Source: a virus. From it: DNA of 38,543 bases. Location of the stretch: the IMG/VR virus record IMGVR_UViG_3300030012_002985, positions 1-38,543 of that record. One strand, 5' to 3'. Both the position numbers and the translations under genes were made by a program. The notes below the pieces were generated by a model. The model ran no database searches and was not told where the DNA came from. It saw only the letters and a program-made list of their open reading frames with translations. Shown here in pieces: positions 9,538 to 30,438 of this stretch; position 1 is the stretch's first letter; each line of letters starts with the position of its first letter.

Positions 9538-11550
9538 ATGATAAATCTAAATAAGCTTGAATTAAAAGAAATATCTGCTGAGCAAATTCGCTCAGAGTAT
9601 TTACATTACGAAAGTTCATCAAGTGAGTATCGTTATCAGATGGCTGAAGACCATGAATTTTTTCTTGGTTCTCAACTTACTAAAAATCAAAAAAATTATT
9701 TATTAAGTGTTGGACAGCCTCCAGAAGCAAATAATAAGATAAGACCAGCGGTTGAGCAAGTTTTAGCTAATATTGCATCTAGCGCTCCAGAATGGGATGT
9801 TCATTCTGTAGGAAAAACAGATAATGATGTTGCATTTGTATTCAATCAGTTACTAGATAAGATTTGGTATGATTCTGATGCTGACGTTCATTTTAGACAA
9901 ACTTGTAAAGATTTTATTGTAAAAGGCATAGCTTATATGTATATATACCCAGACTACCAAGGTGATGGTGGTCTCGGTACAATAAAAGTAAAAAGAATGC
10001 CACCAGAGTCAATATTTGTAGACCCAAATTCTACAATGCCAGATTTTTCTGATGCTAGCTCAATTATTTATTCTGATATTCATACAAAAGAGCATTTAAA
10101 AATATTATTTCCTCAGTATGCTAGCTTGATAGAGGATGCTCAAGAAGAAACAGATATAAATGAAAAATCAAGTGGCAAGTATAATAGAGACTTAAAAGAG
10201 ACAAGAGCTGATATATCTCAAGATGGTCAGCCTAAATGTAGAAAGTTCTGTTACTTTACAAAAGTAAGTATTCCTAAAGTCTTGATTTTAGACACAAATA
10301 CAGGAATGACTCAGAGCTATAATAAAAAGCAGTATAAAGAGCTTATAAAAGATAAACAATACGAAGAATTTTTAAAGCAAGGTATTATTACAGAGCAATT
10401 AACTTATGAAACAGGAATACGTGAAATATTTTCTGTTGGAGATACTATTCTATATGATGAGATTCTCCCAATATCTGAGTACCCCATTGCAGTTGCGTGC
10501 AATGAACATGCTGGTAGTCCGTATCCTAGCGGAGATGTAAGACATGCTAAAACACCTCAGAGAATGTTGAATAGAACTGAGGCTTTATTAATATCACATA
10601 CTAATGCTACAACAAATTTTAAATTAGTTTATGAAGATGGTGCTATTGACGCTAGCGAAATACAAAAATGGCATATACCAAATGCAATTATAAGAGCAAA
10701 TCCAGGTTCGCTAGCATCTGGTAAGATAAGAGAATTTGCACCACCTTCTGTTTCTTCTCAATTATATGTAGAAAAACAAAGATATGAAGTTGATATAGAA
10801 ACTGTATTCGGTGCTTATAAATTTTTACAAGGAAGTAGTCAAGGTGCGCCAGGAACTGTTGGGGAAGCTCAAATTATGGATGAGTCTTCTGCTAGAAAAC
10901 AAAATTGGAAAATATTACCAATATACGATATGCTTACAAGGTGCGCTAAAGTAATTACTGAGTGGATGCCTATGGTATATGATACTCAAAGAACATTAAG
11001 AATTATAAATCCTGTTGGAGATGAATCTGAAATAACGCTGAATATGCCAGTTATAGACGATAAAACTGGTGCAGTTGTAAAGATGTATGATATGCAAACT
11101 GCTAGATTTGATGTAAGAGTTGTAGTTGGCTCTACTAGGTCAAAGTCTCCAATGGCAGAACTACAAAAAGATTTAACATTATTAAGTGCTGGTATATATG
11201 ACAGAACTCAAGTTATTATGAACTTGAAAGGTGATATAAACAAAGCTAGCTTAATGCAAAGACAAAGTGAAATATTACAGTTACAAAGTCAGCTAGCTCA
11301 AGCACAAGAAGAATTAAAACGTATGAAGGGAGACCTTCAGACGAGAGAGCGCGAAGTCTTTCATGCTAATATGCGTGCAGAAATTAGTGAAGCTACAAAA
11401 CCTGTTTCACAGGCTGTTAGCAAAATTAAATCTAATGCTAAGCTGGAAGAAGCTCGACAAAGGGACAAAACTCGCATGGTCGGTGAGCAACTAGGTTCCC
11501 TTTCAAACTCGGTTAACTCAGAAACAGAAGCTCCGCTAGCAAGCGGATAA
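9538..11550 (+). CDS. Portal protein, P22-like
   Basis: A 670-residue protein. The N-terminal part (YRYQMAEDHEFFLGSQ, IRPAVEQVLANIASSAPEW) and the central wing (RMPPESIFVDPNS) match the P22-type portals of podoviruses. Near 440 is SSQGAPGTVGEAQIMDESSA, and the C-terminal 100 residues form a long coiled coil, as in barrel-bearing portals. Twelve copies would form the DNA channel docked by TerL. A 37-base AT-rich gap precedes it. Confidence 0.85.
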   Translation: MINLNKLELKEISAEQIRSEYLHYESSSSEYRYQMAEDHEFFLGSQLTKNQKNYLLSVGQPPEANNKIRPAVEQVLANIASSAPEWDVHSVGKTDNDVAFVFNQLLDKIWYDSDADVHFRQTCKDFIVKGIAYMYIYPDYQGDGGLGTIKVKRMPPESIFVDPNSTMPDFSDASSIIYSDIHTKEHLKILFPQYASLIEDAQEETDINEKSSGKYNRDLKETRADISQDGQPKCRKFCYFTKVSIPKVLILDTNTGMTQSYNKKQYKELIKDKQYEEFLKQGIITEQLTYETGIREIFSVGDTILYDEILPISEYPIAVACNEHAGSPYPSGDVRHAKTPQRMLNRTEALLISHTNATTNFKLVYEDGAIDASEIQKWHIPNAIIRANPGSLASGKIREFAPPSVSSQLYVEKQRYEVDIETVFGAYKFLQGSSQGAPGTVGEAQIMDESSARKQNWKILPIYDMLTRCAKVITEWMPMVYDTQRTLRIINPVGDESEITLNMPVIDDKTGAVVKMYDMQTARFDVRVVVGSTRSKSPMAELQKDLTLLSAGIYDRTQVIMNLKGDINKASLMQRQSEILQLQSQLAQAQEELKRMKGDLQTREREVFHANMRAEISEATKPVSQAVSKIKSNAKLEEARQRDKTRMVGEQLGSLSNSVNSETEAPLASG

Positions 11551-26983: not shown

Positions 26984-27895
26984 ATGGGTAAATTAACAGG
27001 CCAAACAATAGCAGATAGTCACGACCAGTTAGTCATTGTAGACGATGCTTCTGGTATTAATTCTAGCTTACAACCTTTAGAAGGTGGAAAAACTGGTGGC
27101 GGTGTATCTGCTTTAAAAATAGCAACAGATAAAGTTGAAGTAATACCAAGTTCATCTGATAATGCTAATGCATTTGAAGTATCAAAAGCTGATGGTACTG
27201 CAATACTAACTACAGATTCTAGCTCAGAAACAGTTGATATAGCTGGACATGATGAAAGTTCAAAAGGATTAAAACTAGGTGGTACACTTGTAACTGCAAG
27301 TGCAACTGAATTAAACGCTTTAGATGGTGTAACTGCAACTTCATCTGAATTAAATGCTTTAGATGGTGATGCATCAGCTGGTGGTGATACAATAGCATCT
27401 ACTTCTAATGTAATAGTTGATATTGGTGGAACAGTTCAAAAGAAATCAGTTGAAGATTTAGAAGTAAAATTTGAAGATTACTTCGCAAGACCAATGTCGA
27501 TAATGTTATGGAATGCTAGTAGTAAATATATAATGAATAATACTACTGGAACAGATTTAAGTGATTGTGAAAGTGTATTTGATTTTTCTGATTTAGGTGC
27601 TTCTACTAATACTTATCAATTAAAATTATATGTTCATGTTACTTCTCATACTGGTAATGGTTATAATTTCCAATTACAATATGACAATGATTCTAGTAAT
27701 AGTAATTTAGCTTGTACAAATGCTAGCTCTACTACAACCACTATAAATGGTACAACTATATATGAAACTACTGTTGGTGAAATAACAGAAAGTGGATTAG
27801 TTAAATTTAATTTACATGGTTGGAACAATAATAATGGAGGTGGAGAAGATACACGATTTAATAAAGCATGGTTTTGGATTAGACCTAACTCTTAA
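26984..27895 (+). CDS. Tail fibre / receptor-binding protein candidate
   Basis: A 303-residue protein after AAGGAA. Residues about 100-125 hold the phage fibre repeat (TASATELNALDGV, TSSELNALDG), usually part of a trimeric shaft. The C-terminal 140 residues are beta-rich with Asn/Thr/Ser (TNTYQLKLYVHVTSHTGNG, WFWIRPNS), fit for a jelly-roll tip. It probably contacts the host surface. The pilin-like gene follows directly, 3 bases later. Confidence 0.7.
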   Translation: MGKLTGQTIADSHDQLVIVDDASGINSSLQPLEGGKTGGGVSALKIATDKVEVIPSSSDNANAFEVSKADGTAILTTDSSSETVDIAGHDESSKGLKLGGTLVTASATELNALDGVTATSSELNALDGDASAGGDTIASTSNVIVDIGGTVQKKSVEDLEVKFEDYFARPMSIMLWNASSKYIMNNTTGTDLSDCESVFDFSDLGASTNTYQLKLYVHVTSHTGNGYNFQLQYDNDSSNSNLACTNASSTTTTINGTTIYETTVGEITESGLVKFNLHGWNNNNGGGEDTRFNKAWFWIRPNS

Positions 27896-27897
27896 TT

Positions 27898-28392
27898 ATG
27901 AAAAATAATAGAGGTAACTCACTTGCGGAATTTGCAGTTACTATGGCTATTATGGCTACTTTAGCCACTACTTCAGCTCCTGCTTTTAGTCGCATTTCCG
28001 AAGGAGCTAAAGCTAAACAAACTAAATCAAATCTTGAGAAAATAGTAAAAGCATCTCAAATGTGGTACAATCAACAGATTGAACTATATGGTATGGGTAA
28101 GTTTCCTAGCCAAGCACATAGAACTACAAATATTGGATTATTAATAGATTATAATGAGAATAGAAGAATAGAAGTAGAAGAGCTATATGAAGCAGAATTT
28201 GTTCCTGTATTTAGCGATACAAGCTTTTTACATCTATTTGACAATGATACAATTAAAAGTCCCTATCAAGATGGCTTATATGCTTATGCTATTATTGGAG
28301 GCTCTGGTACTGGTGATAACATAGTTAGTCCTATATTTGTTGTAGTAGACACAGAAAACATAGAAGATTTTTATAAATATTATAAGCCATGA
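27898..28392 (+). CDS. Type IV pilin-like protein (class III signal)
   Basis: A 164-residue protein beginning MKNNRGNSLAEFAVTMAIMA. It has a short basic leader ending in Gly6, then a hydrophobic helix with Glu at +5 after the predicted cut (Glu11), and helix-end SAPAFSRI, which are the marks of type IV pilins and pseudopilins cut by prepilin peptidase. The typical Phe at +1 is Asn here. The rest is a helix then a small globular head (about 60-164). A phage copy next to the fibre could be a host-surface mimic or a membrane-anchored lysis or entry factor; function is unknown. Confidence 0.65.
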   Translation: MKNNRGNSLAEFAVTMAIMATLATTSAPAFSRISEGAKAKQTKSNLEKIVKASQMWYNQQIELYGMGKFPSQAHRTTNIGLLIDYNENRRIEVEELYEAEFVPVFSDTSFLHLFDNDTIKSPYQDGLYAYAIIGGSGTGDNIVSPIFVVVDTENIEDFYKYYKP

Positions 28393-28661
28393 ACGAAGAT
28401 TGGAAAGACTACCTAAAAATAGTAATATTTTTATTTGTTATTCTTGGTGGGCTTGTATTATTAGGCTCCTGTAATGGTGGATGGACAGTAGCTGGTGTCG
28501 ATATTAGTCCCTCAGATACTGTTCATGCAGACTTTATGATTATTATAGACCAAGATAGCACAAAACATTGGTATGCAAGAACTACAGTAGATGGCGGTAT
28601 ATTAATTGGAGATAATTGGTGTCATAAACATGGACAATGGGAAAAAGTAGAGAAAAAGTGA
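28389..28661 (+). CDS. Small lipoprotein or membrane protein
   Basis: A 90-residue protein overlapping the previous stop by 4 bases (ATGA). A hydrophobic helix (11-25) ends in LLGSC with Cys28, a plausible lipobox. The rest is a small beta-rich periplasmic domain with Trp and two Cys or His (WCHKHGQW). The location at the start of the lysis cluster suggests a spanin-like or superinfection-exclusion role, both inferred. Confidence 0.55.
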   Translation: MNEDWKDYLKIVIFLFVILGGLVLLGSCNGGWTVAGVDISPSDTVHADFMIIIDQDSTKHWYARTTVDGGILIGDNWCHKHGQWEKVEKK

Positions 28662-28984
28662 GTGAAGATTCAAAAACTTACAGGTCATATGGGGTCACTA
28701 AACTGGACGATAATTATCGGATTAGTCTCAACATTAAATGGCTTGGCCAACTTTGTGTTGCCATTTCTGGTCTTGTCTATGGATACCTACAGATTACGAA
28801 CAGAATTACAGACCTTGAGCGAAGAATGGAACTTGCTAATACCGACATTGCAGAACTTGTAGAAAAACATATAGAAGAAGAAGAAGTTAAAATTACTAAA
28901 ATGCAGGAGCAGTTAAAATGGTACGAAGAGGAATTAAACTTAAATCCTTTATCCTGGGGAAAAAGAAAAAAAAGAAAAAAATAA
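28637..28984 (+). CDS. Single-helix membrane protein with coiled coil, holin- or spanin-like
   Basis: A 115-residue protein. A GTG at 28658, which overlaps the previous stop as GTGA, is an alternative start giving 108 residues. One transmembrane helix (about 33-53, GQLCVAISGLVYGYLQI) is followed by a long acidic coiled coil (LERRMELANTDIAELVEKH) and a Lys-rich tail. This shape recurs in marine-phage lysis regions. Confidence 0.55.
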   Translation: MGKSREKVSEDSKTYRSYGVTKLDDNYRISLNIKWLGQLCVAISGLVYGYLQITNRITDLERRMELANTDIAELVEKHIEEEEVKITKMQEQLKWYEEELNLNPLSWGKRKKRKK

Positions 28985-29079
28985 ATTTTACCGATTGGTG
29001 GATTGAAGATAAATGGACAGAATTAGATGATATTGAACATGGTTATTTTATTAATAAAGAATTACGAAGAGTAAAATAA
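28918..29079 (+). CDS. 53-residue basic protein
   Basis: Starts inside the previous gene (67-base overlap, different frame) and ends on the next start codon (TAATG). A Lys tract (residues 15-21) is followed by INFTDWWIEDKWTELDDIEH. The C-terminal half looks coding; the N-terminal part overlaps the Lys tail of its neighbour. Role unknown. Confidence 0.4.
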   Translation: MVRRGIKLKSFILGKKKKKKKINFTDWWIEDKWTELDDIEHGYFINKELRRVK

Positions 29080-29252
29080 TGGCTCAGAAACGATTTTGTT
29101 GTATGATATGTAATGATTGGTGCTTAAAACCATACAATGGTTTATGTAAAAAATGTGATGAAGAACAAATTACAGGACATTTAAATAATAATAATAACAT
29201 TTCTACTTCATATAATTTAAATTTTTCTTATATTTACAGGGATGAAAAATGA
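29079..29252 (+). CDS. 57-residue zinc-knuckle peptide
   Basis: Begins MAQKRFCCMICNDWCLKPY and has CMIC (8-11) and CKKC (24-27), a zinc-ribbon pair, followed by an Asn-rich tail. It overlaps both neighbours by one or four bases (TAATG, ATGA). It is one of five Cys-knuckle proteins in this phage; target unknown. Confidence 0.55.
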   Translation: MAQKRFCCMICNDWCLKPYNGLCKKCDEEQITGHLNNNNNISTSYNLNFSYIYRDEK

Positions 29253-29566
29253 ATTTTCTAGAAATTTACAGCGAAGCGGGTATGATAGGTGTCGTAGGGG
29301 CTTTGTTAGTGTTTATGGTTTACTCTATGAACAAAAGAGGGTCTGCGCAGGCAGAAAGTTTACAAGACCTAAAAACGGAAAATAGAGGACAGAGTGAAAC
29401 TCTTGAAAATGCTGAAGGTATGTTAATTAAAATGATTGATAGATGGAATAAGTCAGATGAGCGCTTAGATAGAAAATTTGATGACCTTACAAAAGAAATA
29501 AATGATTTAGATAATCAAGTATCAGAAATAAAAGGAATAATATCAAGATTAAACGGTAAGCACTAA
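29249..29566 (+). CDS. Membrane protein with coiled coil, lysis region
   Basis: A 105-residue protein: transmembrane helix near 10-27 (GMIGVVGALLVFMVYSM) followed by a long heptad region (KTENRGQSETLENAEGML, LTKEINDLDNQVSEIKG). The signal-anchor plus periplasmic coil resembles i-spanins; it overlaps the next gene by one base. Confidence 0.55.
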   Translation: MNFLEIYSEAGMIGVVGALLVFMVYSMNKRGSAQAESLQDLKTENRGQSETLENAEGMLIKMIDRWNKSDERLDRKFDDLTKEINDLDNQVSEIKGIISRLNGKH

Positions 29567-29802
29567 TGAGATTAAATACAAATATATCATTAGAAAATAT
29601 TATTACAATAATAGCTCTTATTTGCTCTGTAACGCTAGCATTTGGATTTATGCAGTATGACATAGATATACTTAAAAAAGAGCTTGATTTAAAGGCAAAT
29701 ACGAGCGAATTAGATGCAGATAGAAAGCTTATTACATACAAATTGGACGTGATTATGAAAGATATTGAAGAAATTAAATTAACACTAAAAGAAAGGGAAT
29801 AA
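29566..29802 (+). CDS. Short membrane protein, spanin- or holin-like
   Basis: A 78-residue protein with one helix (8-27, NIITIIALICSVTLAFGFMQ) and a C-terminal coiled coil (DADRKLITYKLDVIMKDIEE). It repeats the plan of its upstream neighbour, with which it may pair. Confidence 0.5.
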   Translation: MRLNTNISLENIITIIALICSVTLAFGFMQYDIDILKKELDLKANTSELDADRKLITYKLDVIMKDIEEIKLTLKERE

Positions 29803-29803
29803 T

Positions 29804-30058
29804 ATGGACTTTTTTAATGATTGGCTTAGCTGGTCTAACTTATTTTATTTAGTTGGATTAATTATAGCTGGATACGCAACATCTGTTACTGCTAAAAACA
29901 GAAATATTGTAATCCAAATAGGTGAGCTAGTAAAAGCTTTAGAAGACGGATATAAAGATAAAAAGCTTAGTAAAGCCGAAAAGGACAAGATTATGAAAGA
30001 GGCGCTAGATGTTGGAAAAGCCGTTATTCAGAGCAAATGGAATCTTTGGGGTAAGTAA
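29804..30058 (+). CDS. Holin candidate
   Basis: An 84-residue protein directly before the endolysin (TAATG overlap). One membrane helix (about 13-30, LFYLVGLIIAGYATSVTA) and a charged C-terminal helix (YKDKKLSKAEKDKIMKEAL). Size and coupling to the endolysin fit a class III-type holin; the four neighbouring membrane proteins are rivals for that role. Confidence 0.5.
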   Translation: MDFFNDWLSWSNLFYLVGLIIAGYATSVTAKNRNIVIQIGELVKALEDGYKDKKLSKAEKDKIMKEALDVGKAVIQSKWNLWGK

Positions 30059-30438
30059 TGCCAAGATTCGGAAAAAGGTCAAAAGATAGACTAAAAGGAG
30101 TTAACCCAAAGCTAGTAAATATTCTTAATGAACTTATAAAAATAATGGATGTAACCATTATCGAGGGTTTAAGAAGTGAAGAAAGACAAAAAGAGCTTCT
30201 AGCACAGGGTAAATCAAAAACAAAATACAGTAAACATCTTGAAGGTAAGGCCGTTGACCTAGCGCCTTACCCAATAGATTGGGAAGATAGAGAAAGGTTT
30301 CATTATATGGGGGGCATGTTAAGAGGAATTTCAAAACAGTTAAATATAAATGTTCGCTGGGGCGGAGATTGGGATAATGACGGTGAGATAGCAGACAATA
30401 GCTTCGACGATTTAGTCCATATAGAACTGCTAGATTAG
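30058..30438 (+). CDS. Endolysin, M15-type peptidase
   Basis: A 126-residue zinc peptidase that would cut the L-Ala-D-Glu or a related bond in peptidoglycan. Motifs are IEGLRSEERQKELLAQG (35-51), SKHLEGKAVDLAPY (58-71) with zinc ligands H60 and D67, and LVHIEL with H121 at the end. It lacks a wall-binding domain, as is usual in phages of diderm hosts. Coupled to the holin candidate. Confidence 0.85.
   Translation: MPRFGKRSKDRLKGVNPKLVNILNELIKIMDVTIIEGLRSEERQKELLAQGKSKTKYSKHLEGKAVDLAPYPIDWEDRERFHYMGGMLRGISKQLNINVRWGGDWDNDGEIADNSFDDLVHIELLD

Follow-up and report, generated by a model that had tools for sequence, protein, structure and literature searches.

The window, i.e., the whole stretch of 38,543 nucleotides that was analysed, is an IMG/VR virus contig whose genes for a terminase, a portal and a major head protein clearly mark it as a tailed phage; such contigs may be partial. 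An open reading frame on its plus strand, at 27898..28392, starts with ATG and encodes a protein of 164 amino acids, a phage pilin that belongs to the short class of what is described here as the GNSLAEF type. An earlier note on this DNA had proposed a class III signal for this gene; the reading frame is real, and its N-terminus reads as quoted there, MKNNRG/NSLAEF (MKNNRG/NSLAEFAVTMAIMATLATTSAP and, in a longer read, MKNNRG/NSLAEFAVTMAIMATLATTSAPAF, the slash being the predicted cleavage site). It comprises a short basic leader, MKNNRG (27898..27915, +), which is predicted and ends in the Gly at -1 after which the cut would fall, and a mature hydrophobic segment, NSLAEFAVTMAIMATLATTSAPAFS (27916..27990, +), with Glu at mature position +5 and no charged residue at mature positions 6-21. 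This part of the protein has a hydrophobic helix of about 20 residues, modelled at 7-25 with low confidence. The head domain (28090..28389, +) is made up of an FPSQ motif, a shortened mid-domain and then SPYQDGLYAYAI...SPIFVVVD..KYYKP, which is common to host pilins.

When 27 relatives are aligned (mean column identity of 88%), the positions from Gly-1 to Phe+6, that is G(-1), N, S, L, A, E(+5) and F, are invariant in all 27. When this protein is shuffled at constant composition, a comparable signal arises in 274 of 200,000 shuffles, and the invariance of the motif is, in our reading, stronger evidence for the predicted signal than this statistic. The leader of the relatives differs in length and in letters, because it is encoded at, or in overlap with, the 3′ end of differing upstream genes, for which reason leader variability was set aside as proof of a signal peptide. 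In some relatives (L092, L121, L126 and L130), the leader that separates the mature pilin from the upstream gene is extended and rich in Cys (e.g., MNKKCACIFFC[IT]CNNKG), which probably reflects an insertion of roughly 36 nt.

Against the Pfam N_methyl profile (PF07963) the phage pilin scores 17.8 bits, under the gathering cut-off of 21.2. Since the same search gives zero matches for the host pilins of pil loci, described below, this shortfall reflects a gap of the Pfam profile. On sequence grounds, the phage protein is classed with those host pilins and not under PF07963, and the GNSLAEF pilins thus brought to light represent a type that Pfam does not recognise.

Genomic neighbourhood

Directly upstream lies a fibre-like gene (26984..27895, +), whose stop is 2 bases before the pilin ATG. 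Family searches with this gene gave no match, and a homologue of it is present in just 2 of 54 relatives, other phages having other genes at that place. On the other side, a small membrane- or lipoprotein-like ORF (28389..28661, +) is the first gene of a conserved cassette and overlaps the pilin stop by 4 bases, as had been noted before, the two genes sharing an ATGA. The cassette continues with a one-TM coiled-coil protein (28637..28984, +), for which 52 of the 54 loci have a homologue downstream of the pilin, and with a protein having an N-terminal TM segment, a coiled coil and weak matches to Rz-like spanin/holin profiles (29249..29566, +; homologue in 49 of 54). It is closed by an M15-type endolysin (30058..30438, +; phrog_465, E 1e-43), with a homologue in 41 of the 54 relatives' loci over which these counts were made, some contigs ending before the endolysin. 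The placement of the pilin between fibre and lysis genes, claimed in the earlier note, is therefore firm on the lysis side, while the fibre label is plausible only. From 28389 to 30058 in the window, the endolysin is preceded by a run of small TM/coiled-coil ORFs, five or six in number, which are conserved across divergent phages and mostly belong to no named family.

Viral relatives and an accessory insertion

Scans of IMG/VR yielded 88 and 90 contigs with a close relative of the phage pilin, and the viral copies, on about 90 contigs, are 67-92% identical. The view that such a gene is unusual for a phage consequently needs qualifying, since at least 88-90 contigs of that collection have one. 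Annotated phage records hold no relative of either the short or the long pilin, and the literature consulted yielded no description of phage-encoded pilins, its coverage being incomplete and such an absence no proof of novelty. Across 72 distinct genes, the median dN/dS is about 0.12, indicating purifying selection, with variation lowest in the N-terminal segment and highest in the mid-domain. As a separate observation, two isolated Vibrio phages, 033B (OP331229, about 39239-39385) and GH32 (MW451249, about 10775-10921), have an unannotated or “hypothetical” ORF with an N-terminus like that of an ordinary GFTLIEL pilin (54.7% over 53 aa).

The same cassette follows the pilin in the 54 relatives, in which capsid and portal either go undetected or show 24-32% identity, the gene upstream of the pilin being of several unrelated kinds. 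Among 32 pilin-bearing records, some of them fragments, the terminase is undetected in 18 and 31-37% identical to that of the window in 14; the pilin in such records is nevertheless 74-92% identical. Moreover, none of the 23 records whose terminase is window-like (61-97%) has the pilin, positive controls having been run on 11 of them; several of the 23 have the cassette, a few of the contigs ending before the expected place. In the pilin-less L391, the upstream gene leads straight into the cassette, which constitutes an exact empty site, and its alignment with L082, L124 and L126 delineates a pilin-gene-sized insertion at the cassette junction. Given this empty site and the absence from phages with a window-like terminase, the pilin is an accessory gene inserted where the conserved cassette begins. 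As judged from these comparisons, the gene is a mobile accessory single-gene insertion, common to divergent phages. The earlier note, whose identification of a pilin-like protein is well supported, had missed this mobility, as well as the multi-pilin operons of other phages.

Near the lysis cassette of a pilin-less relative, a tyrosine-recombinase-like ORF (L390:3062-4069, -) lies beside a regulator-like ORF; it has no homologue in the window or in the pilin loci.

Homology to host pilins and host assignment

A genome scan with the phage alignment, in which the peptide patterns were phage-specific, had returned zero matches, and the search that located the host pilins was a scan of genomes for DNA encoding GNSLAEF[x]VT. 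The matches are records of Candidatus Marinimicrobia / Neomarinimicrobiota (SAR406) and unlabelled marine MAGs; three matches outside Marinimicrobia (L245, L248 and L252) were discarded as not being pilins, or as very short ORFs. The host pilins homologous to the phage protein adjoin genes of families PF01478, PF00437 and PF00482 (pilD, pilB and pilC). In SAT1450 (L253, PAVC01000032), the order is Peptidase_A24, T2SSE ATPase, a sigma-54-type regulator, T2SSF, an ORF and two tandem GNSLAEF pilins, and in MED-G177 (L247, SGYO01000001) a pair of GNSLAEF pilins precedes a row of ordinary GFTLIEL pilins.

The phage pilin aligns with these host pilins, encoded together with PilB, PilC and PilD, over all 164 columns (hhalign, 100% probability, E 1e-42, 43% identity), and blastp gives 35-36% identity over about 208 aa (E about 1e-31). 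Counting from Gly-1, 24 of the first 30 residues are identical between the phage protein and a SAR406 host pilin. This end-to-end homology upholds the proposal of a phage type IV pilin-like protein that would be a substrate of a host prepilin peptidase, an enzyme found in 30 of 33 host-family genomes, 19 of the 33 being matched by the pilin profile. Very probably, the phage protein is homologous to the host pilin and made for handling by the host pilus machine.

Both groups have in common the leader, G(-1)/E(+5), the N-terminal helix, FPxQ, SPyQdG..Y...SPI..V.D and a C-terminal K.yqP. In contrast, the phage pilin is 164 aa long, against 220-260 aa in SAR406 pilins, and lacks most of the mid-domain; it has no machinery genes adjoining it and occupies its own long branch in the tree. 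A short pilin is also present in one host-phylum genome (L271), and the “shortened” head may therefore be ancestral instead of the result of phage trimming.

The most likely hosts, as seen from the pilin sequences, are members of the uncultured SAR406/Marinimicrobia group. This assignment rests on homology and on a single terminase link, namely a host-family genome with two contigs whose terminase is 65% identical to that of the window, which is an independent connection. An archaeal origin was rejected: the MAG labelled Euryarchaeota that was matched (L250, genome G037) is 1 of 194 in its order, and its type IV pilus locus is Marinimicrobia-like, contamination being likely. SAR406 is an abundant marine phylum for which we know of no cultured phage-host pair. 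The phage pilin ties several viral lineages to it and offers a testable handle on their interaction.

Structure model

From phage sequences alone the structure model was unusable (pLDDT 43), and a mixed phage/host alignment raised the AlphaFold2 model to pLDDT 81 (pTM 0.72). In it, a long broken N-terminal helix (alpha1) leads into a small three-stranded domain; past residue 40 the head domain is modelled at pLDDT about 82-95, the membrane helix being of low confidence. Foldseek against the PDB gave no match below E 0.001, the pseudopilin XcpG (9a1f) coming second (E 2.0), ahead of two type IV pilins; against BFVD nothing significant appeared. A sequence search of solved structures produced weak matches to geopilin and MshA (E 0.11-0.2). 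XcpG (9a1f), MshA (9lab) and geopilin (9egp) have an N-terminal methylation-type helix as the phage pilin does, yet differ from it in that none is significantly matched in sequence or structure. The pilin assignment accordingly rests on homology and genomic context instead of a fold search. That the helix might be a plain signal anchor, considered in the earlier note, is contradicted, as the head domain is also homologous to host pilins, constrained and modelled with the above confidence.

Long-class pilins and multi-pilin operons

A second class of viral pilins, of 204-223 aa and about 32-40% identical to that of the window, is found on contigs of up to 132 kb. Where sampled, these contigs encode a UvsX-like recombinase, a single-strand DNA-binding protein, an exonuclease or a primase, and some of the contigs have T4-like replication genes. 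Wherever a long-class locus has 600 bases or more of downstream sequence (34 loci), the GNSLAEF pilin is followed by one to three GFTLIEL pilins. Operons combining a viral GNSLAEF pilin with as many as three GFTLIEL pilins are seen at L144, L151, L174, L186, L194, L230 and other long-class loci.

The pilin tree, the root of which is unsure owing to long branches, contains one short-class clade, one clade of most long pilins and three long ones beside host pilins; the “short” rows inside the long clade (L170 and L173) are contig-end truncations. From this arrangement, more than one capture is likely. It is conceivable, though we would lean against it, that divergent SAR406 phages independently took host pilin genes and build phage-specified type IV pili, rewriting the pilus surface of the infected cell. 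As part of that proposal, and held just as tentatively, the independent captures would comprise a one-gene short form and operons of two to four genes, major plus minor, in larger phages.

A minor pilin of the long-class phages matches phrog_3433, “pilin” (moron, host takeover), at 1.9e-7, the shared part being the N-terminal region only, which shows that phage pilin-like genes are already catalogued. The pilin of the window has no match to this family at E up to 1, nor do 34 relatives at up to 0.1.

Possible function

No recognisable homologue of PilB, PilC or PilD is encoded in any phage locus examined, and the phage pilin must therefore use host machinery. Its gene is late-type in position, in a co-oriented run with the fibre-like and lysis genes. 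The protein would thus be made late, from the fibre/lysis transcript, enter the inner membrane, be cut by host PilD and, by virtue of an N-terminal helix nearly identical to that of the host pilin, be accepted by the host PilB/PilC machine. Since the head is shorter and unlike that of the host, incorporation would either change the pilus surface or stall the filament. In a last step, the least certain of all, the infected cell or its debris would stop binding and pulling in pilus-dependent phage, which would protect the infection and the released progeny; the lysis-adjacent position suggests such a late benefit, in which phage would not be re-adsorbed by infected cells or debris. We give the full mechanism, i.e., a late, PilD-cleaved phage pilin that enters or jams the host pilus and limits re-adsorption or superinfection, a probability of roughly 0.45. 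However, superinfection exclusion early in infection fits the late placement poorly.

The phage pilin could, on the contrary, keep or raise working host pili for DNA or nutrient capture or particle attachment, aiding replication and not exclusion. Minor pilins prime pilus assembly, and the extra GFTLIEL pilins beside the major-type pilin in every one of the 34 long-class loci hence suggest building pili over blocking them, with which the near-host N-terminus also agrees. Nevertheless, the phage of the window has a single pilin, beside lysis genes, which is late for a metabolic benefit, and no link to competence genes was seen, so that this alternative appears rather unlikely. Less probable still is a dominant-negative decoy that builds up in the inner membrane, outside any filament, occupies PilD/PilC and halts assembly. 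The combination of a conserved membrane helix and a head that is shortened and divergent would suit it, and small phage proteins (Tip, Aqs1 and Zip) do disable the same machine (PMC11656802), but the head is strongly constrained beyond the need of a pure decoy helix, and the multi-pilin sets of the larger phages do not fit it.

Aid to the neighbouring TM proteins and the endolysin in breaching the envelope is improbable: although the pilin lies directly upstream of the cassette conserved in 52, 49 and 41 of 54 loci (28637, 29249 and endolysin, respectively), close relatives (L391) have the cassette without a pilin, and long-class phages have pilins without homologues of it. A virion part, e.g., a tail or fibre accessory, is very improbable, since despite the place directly after the fibre-like gene in the window the upstream genes vary between phages, and both the class III membrane signal and the homology to host pilins speak for the host envelope.

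Returning to the proposed late action on the host pilus, the phage of the window and many other marine phages, not otherwise related, encode a version of the pilin of their most likely hosts, which suggests that they remodel or jam host surface pili in infection. Known phage proteins acting on type IV pili, namely Tip (D3112), Aqs1 (DMS3) and Zip (JBD26), have been tied to superinfection exclusion, through inhibition of PilB or PilZ (PMC11656802, PMC11436027). Unlike the phage pilin, they are small soluble inhibitors, and none of them copies the pilin of the host. Phages are thus known to shut off type IV pili by small inhibitors, and swapping in their own copy of a host pilin would be a different strategy.
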